The notes under the pieces are model-generated. The model did not search any database and was not told the origin of the DNA. It worked only from the letters and a program-made list of their open reading frames with translations. From positions 186,001 to 250,000 of the forward strand of contig JACRQE010000003.1 in NCBI GenBank assembly GCA_016222815.1: a stretch of DNA of 64,000 nucleotides, written 5' to 3'. Numbering within the stretch: the first letter of the stretch is position 1; each line of letters opens with the position of its first letter. The DNA comes from Candidatus Uhrbacteria bacterium. Lineage in GTDB: Bacteria; Patescibacteriota; Patescibacteriia; 2-12-FULL-60-25. The position numbers and the translations under genes were made by a program. Positions 4,707 to 13,182 of the stretch are shown here, in pieces.

Positions 4707-4825
4707 AAAAAGCTTGCCTGTGGATATTGTCTGAGTATTAAGACGGGTGTATACTTGTGATGCCAAAATTTTTATAGCTGTACTTTGTGATTGGCTGGTA
4801 TTTATAAATCGTCCGAAAAGCTGTG

Positions 4826-6394
4826 ATGAGGTTTGATTCTTTCACATCCATTCCCGTCCGGAAAAAAATCGCTACTGCCGTCATGGCTGTGTTTTTCGTA
4901 TCTTCATTTATCATCACAGACATCGGGACGGTCAGGGCCGAAGACGTACCGACCGGGACTTTGTATGTGGTTACCCAGGTCTTGAATAACAGCGGATCGG
5001 GATCCAAGTCTGCCGGTGATTTCACCATGACCATCACGGGCGCCAACCCGACGCCCGCCTCATTCGCCGGCACCCCCAATGTTACGGCAGTCACGGTTAA
5101 TGCGGATGAGATCTTTAGCGTGGATCAGACACTGGATGCCTCATACGACACGACATTCGGGGATGGCTGCTTCGGCAAAGTGACCGCTGGCGATAACGTG
5201 ACCTGCGTGGTCACGAGCGATGACATCGAATTTTTTGAAGCCACCACTGGAACCCTCGTCCTCGTCACCCAAGTCATCAATGACGACAGCGGAAGCAAGA
5301 GACCAGATGATTTTACGTCAGTCATCTCGACTGACAACACGACCGACCACGTCATGGGTTCTTCCGATGGGGCTACGGTCATCCTCCCGGCAGGGAGCTA
5401 TGACGTCTCTGAAATCGGGACTGACGGCTATGGTACGACCTTTAGCGCCGGATGTTCCGGCAGTCTGGCGGTCGGAGAGACGCGGACGTGTACCGTAACG
5501 AATGACGATATCTCGCCCTATGAGGCAACGACCGGTACCTTGTCCGTGGTGGTGCAGGTCCAGAATGGTTATGGCGGCACGAAAACATCTTCCGATTTTA
5601 CGCTGAACGTGACAGGGAATTCTCCGGTACCGAACTCCTTTTCCGGTTCAAGTGCGGGCACGGATGTGGTGTTGGTTGCAGGTTCGTATTCTGTCGATGC
5701 GGTGGCTGATGCGAATTACACCGAGAGCATAGGTCCGGGATGCAACGGCGCTATCGGGGTAGGCCAAAACCCTAGCTGTGTCATCACCGAAATCGAATAT
5801 CGTCCCGTCCCGAACGAAGGAACCAGTGGTAACGCCGGTGGAGGCGGAAGTGGCGGCGGCTGGGGAGTCTTGCCTAGTTCACCTTCCGCCGGATTGCAGA
5901 TAGACCAATCGTCGTCTGCGCCTTTGCCTGAAGTGTTGGGCATGTCCACCGATATGCCGTCCAACGATATTTCGACGGTGCAGCCCTCCTCGACTGTCAT
6001 CATTCAACCTCCGGAAGTCCTGACCGGTCAGGATTCCGCCGCTCCAAATCAACCGACCAGGAAGGTGGCACAGAAACGGTCTGTCATCTCTGCGGGTCTA
6101 AGTTTGGATTCTGCACCTGACCAATCGGCCGGGCTCGTCCTTGGCCAAACCTCCCCAAAACCAACGACCGATACGGGCCGTGTCACGTATGATCAGGCTA
6201 AAAAGCCGGATGTCGTGGAAGTTGCGGCCAAGAAATTTCCGCCTGCCGTGAAAAAACGATCTGCTTTAGCCTCGAACGGCATACCTACTGCGTTGGTTTC
6301 TCTCGCCATGCTTGTCGCCTTCTCTGGTTTGTGTCTGGCCGGTGCGAAGAACTTCCGCAGACCGCTGGAGACCAAAAGAACGAAACGGCGTTAG
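4826..6394 (+). CDS. Secreted prealbumin-like repeat protein with degenerate sorting signal
   Basis: About 522 residues (ATG at 4826; a GTG three bases earlier is possible). A signal segment (MAVFFVSSFIITDIG) is followed by three ~95-residue repeats of the kind TLxVVxQVxN...SxDFT...GSYxV...GCxG.....TCxVT. Each repeat has a Cys pair that could form a disulfide. Next come a Gly-rich hinge and a ~150-residue Pro/Ser/Thr-rich stalk. The end is a membrane helix and an Arg/Lys-rich tail. The pentapeptide LASNG, followed by IP, stands where the neighbour at 7840 has LPRTGIP, so a variant cell-wall sorting signal is plausible. Likely surface adhesin or stalk; the function is inferred. Confidence 0.8.
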   Translation: MRFDSFTSIPVRKKIATAVMAVFFVSSFIITDIGTVRAEDVPTGTLYVVTQVLNNSGSGSKSAGDFTMTITGANPTPASFAGTPNVTAVTVNADEIFSVDQTLDASYDTTFGDGCFGKVTAGDNVTCVVTSDDIEFFEATTGTLVLVTQVINDDSGSKRPDDFTSVISTDNTTDHVMGSSDGATVILPAGSYDVSEIGTDGYGTTFSAGCSGSLAVGETRTCTVTNDDISPYEATTGTLSVVVQVQNGYGGTKTSSDFTLNVTGNSPVPNSFSGSSAGTDVVLVAGSYSVDAVADANYTESIGPGCNGAIGVGQNPSCVITEIEYRPVPNEGTSGNAGGGGSGGGWGVLPSSPSAGLQIDQSSSAPLPEVLGMSTDMPSNDISTVQPSSTVIIQPPEVLTGQDSAAPNQPTRKVAQKRSVISAGLSLDSAPDQSAGLVLGQTSPKPTTDTGRVTYDQAKKPDVVEVAAKKFPPAVKKRSALASNGIPTALVSLAMLVAFSGLCLAGAKNFRRPLETKRTKRR

Positions 6395-7683
6395 AATTTC
6401 CAGAGCAACAGCGCCAAGAGCATGACTGACATGCCGTGCGCCAGGTGGGGATAAAGATGATGCGCTCGCCCTTCGAGTCTGCGCTTCATGACGATTGCGA
6501 TCAACAGGCTTATGGCCAAGAAAACGATCGTCAGTACGAATGTGCAGTTAACGGCGAAATTGATTCTTCCGCTGGTCAGCCAGTAAAGCAAAAAGCAGCC
6601 TTGGAATCGGGCATCAGGTACGAACATGTCCTGGGTATCTGCTTTGGGCAGGAGTTTTGCCAGTGCAGCTGTTTTTGGGGTTCCGTCTTTGCCGATCGCC
6701 GTGACCAAAAGCTCATCTCCGTTTGCGCCGCCGGTATCGGGGTTTACTTTGATGGTGGATTCCCACACGCCAGTCATTCGTTTTTGTGAGAGTTGCGCCT
6801 TCTCGGCGCCAAGGCTGACCCAAGCTTTGTCGGCATTTTTGATGGGCACACTGACTCTGACCTGTCCGTCGCCCGGTCTAATCTTTGCTCCCGCGGTGAC
6901 GATTTGTGGCGCATATCCATCCTGCAAAAATTGGCGATCCGTTGCGGGAAATGCGTCTGTTGAACCTGTCCCTTCGTCGATGGATATCCCTGCGACCTCG
7001 CCGGCCGGAGACCTTGATTTCGGTTTGCGTCCTTCATCGGTCCGCGGCTTAGTTCCGGTTGTCTGTGCCGTTTTGGGGGCTCCGAACATTTGCACGACGA
7101 TAATCGTCGGATAATCGTGGAACGTGCCTTCGCTTACGCCCACACCGACTTCCGAATATTTCGGGTTGATCAGATTCTGACGATGGTTCGGGCTCGCGAG
7201 CCAGCCTGACTCCACATCCTCTGCTTCGGTGAAATGGATGGCTAAGTTTTCGGCCGCTGATTTATATGCATATCCGCTGTCCGTTATCCACTTCCAGGGC
7301 AGCTCGCCACCTGGTCCGATATGCGAAAAATATTGCTTGGCCAACATGTCGTCGGCTTTCGCCTGGGCGGCATTCATCAATTTTATGTTCGTCGTCAACG
7401 TATCGATATTCAACTTTTCACGTTCGCGGTTTGTAAGTTCCACTATGTTTTGCGGAGTGATGGCGCTCGAGAACGCGTTGAAAGCCGGAATCATTATCGG
7501 TGCGGCGATCAGCAATGTCTTGAGCAAAAACAGCACGGCCGCATAGCCCAAGAGGGTGTGGTGCCTCAACACGTGCGGCACGTGCCCGTTGCCTTCATGC
7601 GGCACGAAGTGATCTTTTGCATGGCGTTTGACCGCGCGGGATGCGCGGACTAAAGGATGTCTAGCGTAGGTTTTTTTGGCCAT
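6391..7683 (-). CDS. CAP (SCP/PR1) domain membrane protein, paralogue 1
   Basis: 430 residues. A His/Lys-rich cytoplasmic N-terminus (VKRHAKDHFVPHEGN) is followed by a membrane helix near 45-70. The CAP domain lies at about 80-210: YFSHIGPGG, ENLAIHF, GWLASPNHRQNLI and GVGV...VVQMFG mark its conserved regions. After a ~70-residue Lys/Pro linker there is a ~90-residue beta domain and two C-terminal membrane helices. The start at 7683 (MAKKTYARHP) is chosen because it aligns with paralogue 2 at 12943. CAP proteins are extracytoplasmic and of varied function. It is convergent with the repeat protein upstream (4-nt overlap) and divergent from the 7840 gene. Confidence 0.85.
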   Translation of the reverse strand: MAKKTYARHPLVRASRAVKRHAKDHFVPHEGNGHVPHVLRHHTLLGYAAVLFLLKTLLIAAPIMIPAFNAFSSAITPQNIVELTNREREKLNIDTLTTNIKLMNAAQAKADDMLAKQYFSHIGPGGELPWKWITDSGYAYKSAAENLAIHFTEAEDVESGWLASPNHRQNLINPKYSEVGVGVSEGTFHDYPTIIVVQMFGAPKTAQTTGTKPRTDEGRKPKSRSPAGEVAGISIDEGTGSTDAFPATDRQFLQDGYAPQIVTAGAKIRPGDGQVRVSVPIKNADKAWVSLGAEKAQLSQKRMTGVWESTIKVNPDTGGANGDELLVTAIGKDGTPKTAALAKLLPKADTQDMFVPDARFQGCFLLYWLTSGRINFAVNCTFVLTIVFLAISLLIAIVMKRRLEGRAHHLYPHLAHGMSVMLLALLLWKF

Positions 7684-7839
7684 GTTTTTCGGATGTTTGG
7701 CTCCGGCTCTGATGGATGTCATCGATGGATTGGCTTAATGTACCATATTCGAGTTTCGCGATGAATAGCGCTTGGGTCTGTACAAATATTTTTCCAGCTG
7801 GCATAGTTCGACAAATTAATCAGCTTATCTATACCGAAA

Positions 7840-10800
7840 ATGAACAGCAGCAGCTTCTCCTTCAATTGGAGGAATATCGTGGTTCCGGTTGGTGTGGTTA
7901 TCAGCCTGGTCGTGAACGTCGGGTGGATCCCTGGCGCCAAGGCGGACTTGGTACCGCAGAAACACGTCCAGGTAAGGATGGAGGGTTTTAACCTTACCGG
8001 GACGTATTCGGTCGTAGGAGGCCAGCCTACTGGTGTCGGTCAGTTCAAGAACGGCAACGCCGGGGAATACCCCGAAGGCTCATGTATCCCATCGCTGATT
8101 AGCGTCAAAAACAATGACAATGCGGCCGGCGATATCCAGGTCACACCGTATTTTGATTACGGCAAAGATTCCAGTTTCGGCATCGTCAGCCTGAAGCAAA
8201 TCACGACCGGACTATCCGACCCTTCGGTGCAAGCCGACGATCTGAATGACTTCACTTATCCTGGAAGCGACCTCTCTACCGCCACCTCGTTCATGACTGA
8301 CGCAGGCGGAACGAATGCCGCCACGATCAGCGGTCCGTATTCGGGTCAGGATGGCGCTGGTGCTCCAGCTGTTGGGGATACTGTCAGGCATTACAATGTT
8401 CTTCTTCAGAATGTCGCGAAAGGCGAAACCGTCCTCGTCTTGTTTTGCGCCCAATTGCATGTGAATGCCTCTGAATACGGCGGCGGCGCTTCGATGAGCA
8501 TCCGGACGGGTGAAGGTGGTTCAGAGAACATCGCTGTCCAAGCCGTTAAACTTCTCGTCCTGCCTAAACTGACCTTGACTAAGGTGGTCGAGGGTGGGAC
8601 GGCCACGGCTGACCAATGGTCTTTCCATGTCTCGCCGTCCATCAGCGGCCAGTCTGATTTCCCGATCGCCGCAGGCCAGGACTCGGTCATCATCGACAAC
8701 ATAGAACCTGACGGAATATATGTCATAACCGAAACCGGGGGTCCGAGCAATTATCAGTTCAAAGGCGGCTCCGGCACGAACTGTGCCTTCAGCGGGTCTG
8801 CGGCATCAACGACTCTGGCTGCGGCCAAACCCCAACAGACCGCAACCTGTGTTTTCACCAATGAATACGTACCGCCGGTGGTCATGCCTAAATTGACCGT
8901 CACCAAGGTCGTGGTCAACGATAACGGCGGAACCGCGGTCGTCTCCGATTTCCCGCTCTTTGTCGACGGAAATCCGGTGACTTCCGGCCAGCAGAATGCC
9001 TTCGCCACCGGGACCCGTACGGTCAGCGAGACCGGCAGCTCCAGCTACACCCCGACATTCAGCGGTGATTGCGACAGCGCTGGCCAAGTTTCTTTGGCCG
9101 AAGGCGACGTAAAGTCCTGCACCGTAACGAACGACGACATCTATACTGCGACTACGGCTACGCTCACGGTCGTCAAACAGATCGTCAACGATAACGGCGG
9201 CACCAAGGTCTCTGGAGATTTCACCCTAAACGTCACAGGCTCCAACGTCTCGAATCCCAGTTTCGCGGGTTCGGCTTCAGGTGTTACGGTCACTTTGGAT
9301 GCCGGAGCCTACTCTGTGGATGAAAATTCCGACCCCGGCTACTCAAAGACTGTAGGCACGGGTTGTTTCGGCACCCTGACGGTCGGCCAGAGCCAGACCT
9401 GTACCATCACCAACGATGATGTCGATACCAGCAGCGGATGGACGGCCACGACCGGTACGCTCATGGTCATCAAACAGGTCGTGAACGACGACAGCGGCAC
9501 CAAATCTCCCGGCGACTTCACCCTTACCGTCAACGGTACGAATCCCTCACAGACAAGCTTCGCAGGTTCTACTTCGGGTGTCTCTGTCACATTGGACGCC
9601 GGTTCCTACACCGTGGATGAGAACGCCGATTCGGGCTATGCCAAGTCTTTAGGCGCGAACTGCTCGGGTACGCTAGCGGCCGGCGACACCAAGACCTGCA
9701 TCGTCACGAATGACGATATCTACACCGCGACGACCGCGACCCTGACCGTCATCAAACTTGTGGTCAACGATGATAATGGCAAGAAAGAACCGTCCGACTT
9801 CAAGTTGGACGTCAGTGGCACAAGTCCATTGCCTGCTTCTTTCGACGGTTCGAGTAGCGGGACCACGGTTGTTTTGGGCGCCGGGAGCTACTCTGTCACC
9901 GAGAAGGGCGGCGGAAATTATGATGCCTCATACAGTGCAGGCTGCTCGGGCACTATCGCCGCAGGCGAGTCCCGTACCTGCACGGTCACTAATGACGATC
10001 GTAAACCCGGAGGCGGCGGTGGGGGAGGCGGAGGAGGTTTCGAAGCCACCACCGGTACTTTGACCGTCATCAAGCTGGTCAAAAACGATTACGGCGGCAC
10101 CAAGCTTGCCGGAGACTTCACCCTGACCGTCAGTGGCACCAGTCCCTCATTGTCCAGTTTCGCCGGTTCCTCATCTGGCTCTGTCGTGGTCTTGGGCGCT
10201 GGCGCCTATCAAGTGGATGAAATCGAGGATTCCGCATATGCCAAATCTCTGGGAGCGGGTTGCACAGGCACGCTCGCCGCCGGAGAAAGCCTGACCTGTA
10301 CCGTGACCAACAGCCAAAAACCGACAAGCCCGGTGGATACGGCAGACCTGTCCGTGGCCAAGTCGGCCAGTGCTTCCAGCATCCAGACCGGTACGAGCCT
10401 CGATTATTTCATAGACCTGATAAATATCGGACCTGATGCCGCGACCAACGCCCAGGTTGCCGATGTCCTGCCGACCGGATTCATCTACCAATCGTCCGTG
10501 GCCAGCCAGGGTTTCTACTCGACGTCTACCGGCATTTGGACCGTGGGTGCCATGGCAGTCAATGCCACGGCGACGTTAAGCATGAACGTCACGGTCACGG
10601 CTGCAGCCGGTCTGTACGTCAACACCGCTACGGCGACTGCCCTGGAATACGACCCGGTCAGCGGCAATAATGTCACAAGCACCAGTGTCACGGTCACGGC
10701 TGCTGGGGGGTCAGGCGGTGGTGGTGGAGGTAGCGGCGGTGGGGGAGGCACTGTAGTTTACATCTATGACCCGCCGATTGGCGGCGGATCGGGCGGTTCA

Positions 10801-11028
10801 AACCCGGCGCCTGCAGTGAGCCCGGCTGTCCTGCCTCCGCCGGCAACCGAACCTGTCCCACAAGTTTTAGGTGCAGTTGATGAAGTCCTGGCGTTAGCCC
10901 CAGAAGCAGCACCTCCTGTGCCGCGTGTTTTGGGGGCAGTCGACGAATTGCCGCGCACCGGCATCCCGGCTTGGACCCTGTTGGCCGTCATATCAGCCGC
11001 AGTAGTCGCCTTGCGCCGCAAACAATAA
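7840..11028 (+). CDS. Large LPRTG-anchored surface protein with prealbumin-like and DUF11 repeats
   Basis: 1062 residues. Signal peptide, about residues 10-36 (cleavage near AKA). A ~200-residue N-terminal beta domain follows, then six prealbumin-like repeats (about residues 245-825). The four central ones are nearly identical in layout: TLTVIKxVVNDxxGxK...DFTL.V.G..P...SFxGSxSGxxVxLxAGxYxVxE...GC.GTLAAGxxxTCxVTNDD. Then a DUF11 domain (about 832-945), Gly-rich linkers, and a canonical sorting signal LPRTG at 1037-1041 with membrane helix and RRKQ tail. It is the obvious substrate candidate for the sortase 20 nt downstream. Role: surface fibre or adhesin (inference). Confidence 0.9.
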   Translation: MNSSSFSFNWRNIVVPVGVVISLVVNVGWIPGAKADLVPQKHVQVRMEGFNLTGTYSVVGGQPTGVGQFKNGNAGEYPEGSCIPSLISVKNNDNAAGDIQVTPYFDYGKDSSFGIVSLKQITTGLSDPSVQADDLNDFTYPGSDLSTATSFMTDAGGTNAATISGPYSGQDGAGAPAVGDTVRHYNVLLQNVAKGETVLVLFCAQLHVNASEYGGGASMSIRTGEGGSENIAVQAVKLLVLPKLTLTKVVEGGTATADQWSFHVSPSISGQSDFPIAAGQDSVIIDNIEPDGIYVITETGGPSNYQFKGGSGTNCAFSGSAASTTLAAAKPQQTATCVFTNEYVPPVVMPKLTVTKVVVNDNGGTAVVSDFPLFVDGNPVTSGQQNAFATGTRTVSETGSSSYTPTFSGDCDSAGQVSLAEGDVKSCTVTNDDIYTATTATLTVVKQIVNDNGGTKVSGDFTLNVTGSNVSNPSFAGSASGVTVTLDAGAYSVDENSDPGYSKTVGTGCFGTLTVGQSQTCTITNDDVDTSSGWTATTGTLMVIKQVVNDDSGTKSPGDFTLTVNGTNPSQTSFAGSTSGVSVTLDAGSYTVDENADSGYAKSLGANCSGTLAAGDTKTCIVTNDDIYTATTATLTVIKLVVNDDNGKKEPSDFKLDVSGTSPLPASFDGSSSGTTVVLGAGSYSVTEKGGGNYDASYSAGCSGTIAAGESRTCTVTNDDRKPGGGGGGGGGGFEATTGTLTVIKLVKNDYGGTKLAGDFTLTVSGTSPSLSSFAGSSSGSVVVLGAGAYQVDEIEDSAYAKSLGAGCTGTLAAGESLTCTVTNSQKPTSPVDTADLSVAKSASASSIQTGTSLDYFIDLINIGPDAATNAQVADVLPTGFIYQSSVASQGFYSTSTGIWTVGAMAVNATATLSMNVTVTAAAGLYVNTATATALEYDPVSGNNVTSTSVTVTAAGGSGGGGGGSGGGGGTVVYIYDPPIGGGSGGSNPAPAVSPAVLPPPATEPVPQVLGAVDEVLALAPEAAPPVPRVLGAVDELPRTGIPAWTLLAVISAAVVALRRKQ
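8884..10320 (+). repeat. Tandem coding repeats (prealbumin-like) within the LPRTG protein
   Basis: Five consecutive repeat units start near 8887, 9154, 9454, 9739 and 10051, with periods of about 285-312 nt. Units differ mainly in linkers: a Gly run at 10009-10038 precedes the last one. The same unit type occurs three times in the 4826 gene (near 4960, 5245, 5530). Confidence 0.8.
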
Positions 11029-11047
11029 GCATATATAAACAGACGGT

Positions 11048-11635
11048 ATGGAGCCGGGACAAAAGATCTTAGCCGGTTCGCTTGCCGTCTGTTTTGTTGT
11101 CGTCATCATGAACAGCGGGTATTTTTTGGCGCACCTGGATTATGCCATGGCACCTCCACATGTCTCGCCGCCACTGGTCGCGACAACGACAGCCCAGGAG
11201 GTCGGGGAGCCTAATCGTCTTACCATCGAAAGCCTGGGTATCGATGCACCTATCGTCTACATCGATGAAAAAAACGAAGCCGCTTATCAGTCTGCCCTCA
11301 AGAAGGGCGTCGTGCATTTTCCGGGGACCGCGTTTCCGGGAGAGCTCGGCAATGTCTACATCTTCGGCCACTCCAGTGATTTTTCCTGGGCTGAAAGCCC
11401 ATTCCGTTCCATCTTCGCTCTCCTGACTGAAATCAAAGTAGGGGACGCAATCAATATCAGCGATTCCGAGGGCAGGATCTTCCATTACTACGTCACCGGC
11501 ACTAAGGTCGTTTCGCCGAAAGACTTGAGCGTCCTCGACCAGTACGGCGATAAAAAAAAGATGCTGACCCTGCAGACTTCATATCCGCTGGGCACGGCCT
11601 TGAGACGGTTTTTGGTTGTTGCCGAGTCCGACTGA
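11048..11635 (+). CDS. Sortase-family protein with Ser in place of the catalytic Cys
   Basis: 195 residues: N-terminal membrane helix (about 8-28), then a class D/E-like sortase domain (about 57-193). Seen directly: RLTIESLGIDAPI at the start of the barrel, the catalytic-type His in VYIFGHSSDF (His108), and the basic residues Arg186/Arg187 in ALRRFLVV. The active-site strand reads LTLQTSYP, where sortases have TLxTC: the codon TCA at 11579-11581 gives Ser178 instead of Cys. Two base changes separate TCA from a Cys codon. It starts 20 nt after the LPRTG gene, so they form an operon. Either it is catalytically dead or altered, or it works as a binding scaffold. The stop abuts that of the convergent CAP gene. 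Confidence 0.88.
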   Translation: MEPGQKILAGSLAVCFVVVIMNSGYFLAHLDYAMAPPHVSPPLVATTTAQEVGEPNRLTIESLGIDAPIVYIDEKNEAAYQSALKKGVVHFPGTAFPGELGNVYIFGHSSDFSWAESPFRSIFALLTEIKVGDAINISDSEGRIFHYYVTGTKVVSPKDLSVLDQYGDKKKMLTLQTSYPLGTALRRFLVVAESD

Positions 11636-12943
11636 TTACATCTTGAAGAGCACTGCCGTAAGTCCGATCACGACCATTGTATGCAGGATGATGGTCGGCC
11701 GCTGGACATGGATTTTTATCAATATGGATATGAGCAGGCACGTCGCCAGGAATATCATGGTCATGATGTAGACCTGTCTGGCATGGTCGCGCAAACCTTC
11801 CAGCGGAATGAAACCGAACAGTCTATAGCTCGGTTCGGAATTCGGCGCCGCGAAGGCAAATAGCTCTTGGGCGTTGGCTTCGGGCGCGATCATGGCCACC
11901 GTTTCGCCAGAATTCAGACCGTCTGCGTTCCAGGCGGTGATGGTCAGCTTTTCTCCGCCTGGTGCAGCGGTGCGCGGGTCGAAAGCAAGTACGGCGCGCC
12001 AGGTTTGTCCGTCTTCCGCGGATTCAAGGTTGACTTGCTCCTCTCCGAGCTGGGCCATGGCCGAAGATGCGTTCTCGATGGTCAATGCGACTGAATAGCC
12101 TGGACCTTCAGGCTTGATCCGGGCGGTATCGCTGACGATTGCCGGAGGTTCCGATTTTTTTGCCGCCGGTTGCTGGGCAACCGTCTTTGTCGTAGTCTGC
12201 GTCTTTGATTTTACGCCGGCGACAGCCCCGGTAGTGGATGTCGTGACCACGACGGGTGTTGTCGTATTCTGTTTGGCCGGCGTCGGAGCGGTTTTCTCTG
12301 CTTCAGCTGCCGGCACATCCTTGGCGCCCACGGGCCGCCCGAACATCTGGACCACGACTATAGACGGATGCCCCTCGAATACGCCTTCTGCGATCCCGAC
12401 GCCAGTTTCTGTGAATTTCGTGCTGACGATGTTGGCGCGATGGCTCGGACTGGCCAGCCATCCGGCGAAAGTCCCTTCGGCCGTTGTGTAATGGACCGCA
12501 AGGTTTTCGCCCGAGATCGTGTATGCATAACCGGCTTGCCGGATCCAAGCCCAAGGCGTCGTGCCGCTCGGGCTGGTATGGGCGAAATATTGTTTCTCCA
12601 ACATGTCGGCGGCCTTGGCAGCTGCGGCGTTGGTCAGTTTGGTATTGGTTTTGAGCGGCGTCAGGCCTTGTCCGCTGCGCGCTTCGTTGGTCAAAGTGAT
12701 GATGTTGGCCTGGGTAATGGCTCCGGATAGGACGGAAGCGGACGGCAGGATGAGCGATACCGTGATGACGACCGCTTTGAGCAAGACCAAGGCGACGCTG
12801 TAACCTAAAAGCACGCGGTGCTTGAGCACGTGCGGGATATGGTTGTTTCCCTCATGCGGGATGAAGTGGTCCTTGGCGTGTCGGTGCACCGCCTTGGCCG
12901 CCCTCACCACCGGATGATGTCTTTTATCCTTGGTCGAAGCCAT
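11636..12943 (-). CDS. CAP (SCP/PR1) domain membrane protein, paralogue 2
   Basis: 435 residues with the same plan as the 6391-7683 protein: basic N-terminus (VHRHAKDHFIPHEGN), membrane helix near 45-70, CAP domain about 80-210 (YFAHTSPSG, ENLAVHY, GWLASPSHRANIV, VVQMFGRP), Thr/Ala/Pro linker, beta domain, and two C-terminal membrane helices. The two paralogues bracket the LPRTG protein and sortase, which suggests one envelope module (inference). It converges on the sortase gene with no bases between the stop codons. Confidence 0.85.
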   Translation of the reverse strand: MASTKDKRHHPVVRAAKAVHRHAKDHFIPHEGNNHIPHVLKHRVLLGYSVALVLLKAVVITVSLILPSASVLSGAITQANIITLTNEARSGQGLTPLKTNTKLTNAAAAKAADMLEKQYFAHTSPSGTTPWAWIRQAGYAYTISGENLAVHYTTAEGTFAGWLASPSHRANIVSTKFTETGVGIAEGVFEGHPSIVVVQMFGRPVGAKDVPAAEAEKTAPTPAKQNTTTPVVVTTSTTGAVAGVKSKTQTTTKTVAQQPAAKKSEPPAIVSDTARIKPEGPGYSVALTIENASSAMAQLGEEQVNLESAEDGQTWRAVLAFDPRTAAPGGEKLTITAWNADGLNSGETVAMIAPEANAQELFAFAAPNSEPSYRLFGFIPLEGLRDHARQVYIMTMIFLATCLLISILIKIHVQRPTIILHTMVVIGLTAVLFKM

Positions 12944-13108: not shown

Positions 13109-13182
13109 GGGGGCTTCGTTCAATGGTAGGACGCTGGTCTCCAAAACCAGCGACGTAGGTTCGATTCCTACAGCCCCTGCCA
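13109..13182 (+). tRNA. tRNA-Trp (anticodon CCA)
   Basis: The acceptor arm GGGGGCT pairs with AGCCCCT (one G-U pair). The anticodon loop CTCCAAA sits on stem CTGGT/ACCAG, the T arm reads GGTTCGATTCC, and CCA is encoded at 13180-13182. A long hairpin begins inside its 3' end. Confidence 0.95.

Follow-up and report, generated by a model that had tools for sequence, protein, structure and literature searches.

Sortases are, to our knowledge, described throughout as cysteine transpeptidases, and their cysteine is treated as indispensable. Here we analyze a sortase-like gene in a 64,000-nucleotide stretch of DNA from a Candidatus Uhrbacteria genome; "the window" refers to this whole stretch. The closest described relatives of its product are the sortases of PF04203 and TIGR01076 (MEROPS C60), among which classes D and C are the nearest curated classes. 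The window protein shares with them the predicted fold, an N-terminal anchor, the TLxT strand, the catalytic histidine and arginine, and an LPxTG partner. However, the nucleophile is cysteine in C60 sortases and serine in the window protein, which also scores far below the class cut-offs. Closest in a phylogenetic tree are patescibacterial cysteine sortases of a GHSS type (e.g., L006, L035, L044, L171 and L173), which share the GHSS motif and are 31-41% identical to the window protein (alignment A2). Unlike it, they keep the cysteine, lack Gln176 and Phe106, and have no directly adjacent LPxTG protein in the loci tested.

Exchanges of cysteine and serine nucleophiles within one fold are known from protease clan PA, whose fold differs from that of sortases. 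We found no description in the literature of such an exchange in sortases, nor, in the open-licence literature, any description of serine-type sortases, including under the term "serine sortase". Rhombosortase, of the GlyGly-CTERM system (PMC3237569), is likewise a serine enzyme for which processing of a C-terminal sorting signal has been proposed. It is a rhomboid intramembrane protease with an unrelated fold and another signal. According to a study of protein families in CPR bacteria, over half of the CPR genomes encode a sortase family; in the excerpts considered here, the nucleophile is not mentioned (PMC6744442).

Serine at the nucleophile position

The features of the gene are as follows, in window coordinates.

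11048..11635, + strand: Ser-type sortase gene (195 aa; N-terminal membrane anchor, then the PF04203 domain)
11066..11149, + strand: predicted N-terminal membrane anchor (approximately residues 7-34; hydrophobic sequence; helices in the AlphaFold2 model, at low confidence)
11369..11371, + strand: His108, the catalytic histidine (GHSSDF), invariant in 42 Ser-sortases
11573..11575, + strand: Gln176 (LTLQTS), kept in every sequence of the main Ser clade and missing from the Cys relatives compared
11579..11581, + strand: codon 178, TCA (Ser), at the position of the catalytic cysteine; in an alignment with solved sortases, Ser178 falls on the cysteine of TLxTC
11606..11608, + strand: Arg187, the catalytic arginine on strand b8, invariant in 42 Ser-sortases

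The PF04203 profile from Pfam matches residues 58-193 with 82.6 bits (cut-off 26.6), and TIGR01076 matches with 48.6 bits, above its cut-off of 39.35. Scores for individual classes fall under their cut-offs (52.7 bits against 165 for class D, 44.3 against 160 for C, 43.8 against 160 for E and 40.8 against 166 for F). The cut-off of class GN is likewise far above the score, and the protein has no curated assignment among classes C, D, E, F and GN. An AlphaFold2 model built from a 56-row alignment has a pLDDT of 96-98 across most of the catalytic domain. Its top matches in the PDB are all sortases, of classes D, C, E and A, and it differs from Actinomyces oris SrtC-1 by an rmsd of 2.1 A. On the basis of this model, we are confident in predicting a sortase beta-barrel fold.

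A first-pass annotation of the DNA had claimed that serine replaces the catalytic cysteine in a TLQTS strand, with the histidine and arginine of the family kept. The alignment to solved sortases bears out this claim: the end of strand b7, where cysteine sortases carry their nucleophilic cysteine, is occupied by Ser178, and His108 and Arg187 are both present. We also agree that TCA lies two changes away from TGC or TGT. The sole cysteine of the protein is Cys15, which is located in the membrane anchor, and no conserved cysteine column was found elsewhere in the alignment of the Ser clade. For these reasons, a displaced cysteine acting as a stand-in nucleophile is ruled out.

Distribution and conservation of Ser-sortases

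A profile with DNA patterns that skip the nucleophile position was used to scan 84,980 species genomes, and further searches covered 381 genomes from the class and 380 from the phylum; for the phylum, the top-ranking matches were read. Among the sequences read, there are at least 42 distinct Ser-sortases, versus 91 sequences with cysteine, histidine and arginine. Wherever the source of a Ser-sortase is named, it belongs to Patescibacteria (including Doudnabacteria, Veblenbacteria and a Parcubacteria bin), which are uncultivated bacteria of ultra-small size, and is a metagenome assembly; the remainder are bacterial bins. The sources comprise about a dozen families. A search of viral contigs found no relatives of the Ser-sortases. 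As judged from these sequences, the Ser-sortases are a widespread clade rather than one odd gene.

This distribution bears on whether the serine is real. The same-genus genome G001 encodes an orthologue that is 69% identical to the window sortase and also uses TCA, and 40 further distinct homologues share the serine, so a sequencing error, which the first-pass annotation had proposed to check by comparing orthologues, is excluded. All four TCN codons are used (TCT 16, TCA 12, TCC 10 and TCG 5, with the window sequence counted twice). More generally, there is next to no chance that the serine reflects a mistake in sequencing, assembly or annotation, or a reassigned codon, given that TCN occurs at the nucleophile codon in independent assemblies of 42 species-level genomes. 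We know of no code used by Patescibacteria in which TCN is not serine.

Across the 42 Ser-sortases, the nucleophile column is always serine, and never alanine, glycine or threonine, and the histidine and arginine are invariant. The main Ser clade (40 sequences) has the signature GHSSD...LTLQTS[YW]PxGTA, and its invariant residues include His108, Ser109, Ser110, Gln176, Thr177, Ser178, Pro180 and Arg187. Phe106 and Gln176 are typical of the Ser set; the closest Cys relatives have Thr, Ala or Ser at position 106 and Met, Ser, Ile, Val or Thr at position 176. Ala184 also separates the Ser set from these relatives, and Asp111 does so less sharply. However, a second pair of Ser-sortases (L007 and L114) has Thr106 and Val176, and Phe106 and Gln176 are therefore not strictly required as companions of the serine. 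Asp111 is replaced by asparagine in 3 of the 42 sequences and no aspartate is invariant; a Ser-His-Asp triad can therefore not be taken for granted.

These observations must be weighed against the possibility that the Ser-sortases are pseudoenzymes, which would bind LPRTG signals and hold or deliver the surface protein without cutting it. Serine in place of cysteine is a classic inactivating change, and the C184S variant of Staphylococcus aureus SrtA is less active than the natural enzyme (PMC4827206). Moreover, in some genomes the Ser-sortase is accompanied by another sortase, which could carry out the reaction. One of these is the window genome: its second sortase has cysteine and its own upstream LPNTG protein (L002, G000:C4:37787-41206), and thus two enzyme-substrate pairs coexist in this genome. 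However, in a pseudoenzyme the histidine and arginine would be free to drift, yet they are invariant in all 42 sequences; the decay of catalytic residues was not encountered, and the nucleophile position never holds alanine, glycine or threonine. In addition, the Ser-sortase is the sole PF04203 protein in 16 of the 18 genomes of the class that were examined, several of which are rated 100% complete. The Ser-sortases also contrast with a sortase relative in Propionibacteriaceae that the same search recovered (L095:5524-6402), which has tyrosine for the histidine and alanine for the cysteine and, going by these replacements, is likely a true pseudo-sortase. Overall, we regard the pseudoenzyme explanation as rather improbable.

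Evolutionary origins and selection

We built a tree with the nucleophile column removed, leaving 137 columns. In this tree, 39 Ser rows form one clade (bootstrap/SH-aLRT 100/97), and the pair L007 and L114 is placed within a group of Cys sortases (97/96). All Ser rows were joined in 0 of 200 bootstrap trees; an AU test of a single origin of Ser-sortases gave p = 0.13, i.e., a single origin is not rejected. The order of the forks around the Ser groups is weak, because the tree is based on only 137 columns. The placement of the pair suggests that it probably represents a second origin of Ser-sortases.

As judged from substitution rates, the sortase domain is under purifying selection: the two pairs with an estimable dS have dN/dS values of 0.09 and 0.19. 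Silent sites are saturated in four other pairs, with dN of 0.15-0.27, and dS is saturated between the window sortase and its same-genus orthologue.

Association with sorting-signal proteins

Upstream of the sortase gene, the window contains the following features.

7840..11028, + strand: likely substrate, a surface protein of 1062 aa that contains five SpaA_2 (prealbumin-like) repeats as well as a DUF11 domain
10948..10962, + strand: LPRTG motif of the substrate, 26 residues from the C-terminus, followed by a hydrophobic stretch and the basic tail RRKQ

The sorting signal is complete, with an LPxTG motif, a hydrophobic stretch and a basic tail (window positions 10948-11025). The gene had been noted to follow its likely LPRTG substrate closely, and there are indeed 19 nt from the end of the open reading frame at 7840-11028 to the ATG of the sortase. 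The locus L174, from the same genus, has the same arrangement of substrate and sortase. Two membrane proteins with CAP domains flank the pair in the window (6391-7722 and 11636-12943, both on the - strand); an open reading frame similar to the window CAP-domain protein also follows the sortase in L174. A tRNA-Trp (CCA) gene is located just past the downstream CAP gene (window 13109-13182). Another protein with SpaA_2 repeats, a membrane tail and a basic end, but no recognisable LPxTG motif, is encoded at 4823-6394 in the window (SALASNGIPTALVS).

Of 41 Ser loci, 25 have a gene directly upstream, on the same strand, that ends in a sorting signal and a hydrophobic stretch. The motif is LPRTG in 19 of these partners, LPVTG in three, LPKTG in one and TPRAG in two; the TPRAG partners (at loci L189 and L190) are exactly those of the second Ser pair (sortases L114 and L007). 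All partners but one either lie within 100 nt of the sortase or extend into its stop-to-stop frame. When 49 Cys loci were searched by the same signal test, no signal-bearing gene was found directly next to the sortase; six of these loci have a signal-like tail at a distance of 0.5-3 kb. Most partners of the Ser-sortases are large surface proteins, in which SpaA-like, DUF11, SdrD_B or PKD domains occur; some others are small and have no Pfam match. At one locus (L199 in G505, positions 8515-10083), the LPRTG end of a surface protein and the Ser-sortase occur in a single open reading frame with no stop between them, which, from the sequence, could be a fusion that exists in nature or could reflect the loss of a stop during assembly. 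We modeled this fusion with AlphaFold2 in search of docking of the LPRTG motif on the serine, and confidence was low before the helix.

There are 15 of the 41 Ser loci without an adjacent or fused LPxTG protein, of which one is near a contig end. These loci include six of families f24 and f53, plus some others. The pattern matches read in three genomes of f24/f53, and those read in genomes of f121, included no C-terminal LPRTG motif accompanied by a membrane tail. In f121, a small-genome family, the Ser-sortase is embedded in a cell-wall gene cluster: at each of the five loci, it has murG on one side and murC on the other (ftsW-murG-sortase-murC; L196, L204, L209, L210 and L211). In family f172, a similar uvrA-like gene adjoins the Ser-sortase, and a small LPRTG protein lies between them in some of the loci compared (L195 and L202 versus L198 and L200).

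Possible mechanism

Given these data, we think it likely that the window protein works as a membrane-anchored sortase with Ser178 as its nucleophile, paired with the LPRTG surface protein encoded upstream. The related Ser genes probably also encode working serine-type sortases. The first-pass annotation had left two options, a serine nucleophile or a pseudoenzyme that binds sorting signals. The comparison of orthologues favors the former at the level of sequence, in view of the invariant serine, histidine and arginine, the mostly sole sortase, purifying selection and the linkage to LPRTG proteins. An active serine enzyme would explain the catalytic invariance, the lack of a second sortase and the pairing with LPRTG proteins, none of which a pseudoenzyme explains well.

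In the mechanism that we propose, the sorting signal would bind the groove of the sortase, and Ser178 would attack the threonine carbonyl of LPRT|G, with His108 acting as general base and Arg187 stabilizing the oxyanion. The acyl-enzyme would be an ester rather than a thioester. This ester would then be resolved by an amine, probably one supplied by lipid II or peptidoglycan, which would leave the protein anchored to the wall.

Properties of a cysteine sortase may bear on this chemistry. The resting nucleophile of S. aureus SrtA is more than 99.9% protonated, and its histidine has a pKa of 6.3 (PMC8763382); therefore, at neutral pH, a neutral histidine faces a protonated nucleophile. By analogy, we infer that this resting state would correspond to the starting state of a serine enzyme, and would be nearer to serine enzymes than to papain-type enzymes. 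However, the reduced activity of the C184S variant implies that serine alone performs poorly in the old frame, and one must assume that other parts of the site compensate.

It is also conceivable that the ester is resolved mainly by water, in which case the enzyme would be a serine-type peptidase of sorting signals, and the LPRTG protein would be released or trimmed instead of anchored. This idea follows from established ester chemistry, and the sequence evidence for it is the same as for a transpeptidase, and so cannot separate the two. However, the linkage to murG and murC in five genomes suggests that peptidoglycan precursors serve as the acceptor, and it seems less useful for a sole sortase to shed its own partner. 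We therefore give the peptidase explanation a low probability.

The proposal that we favor, with fair confidence, is that the Ser-sortases are a natural family of transpeptidases that act through a Ser-O-acyl ester. The family would descend from Cys sortases, with at least one and probably two origins within Patescibacteria, and its members would often be the sole sortase of their genome and have a dedicated LPRTG protein.

Conclusions

In homology-based annotation, the Ser genes are labelled as plain sortases, and this hides the difference at the nucleophile. If our proposal is correct, the conserved Ser clade would mean that the sortase scaffold can run on an oxygen nucleophile, and would raise the question of how a weak active site manages the chemistry of converting an amide to an ester. 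Such an enzyme could potentially serve as an oxidation-proof ligase that is insensitive to thiol inhibitors. The finding also bears on how Patescibacteria may fix large proteins to their surface, a poorly known part of their biology.
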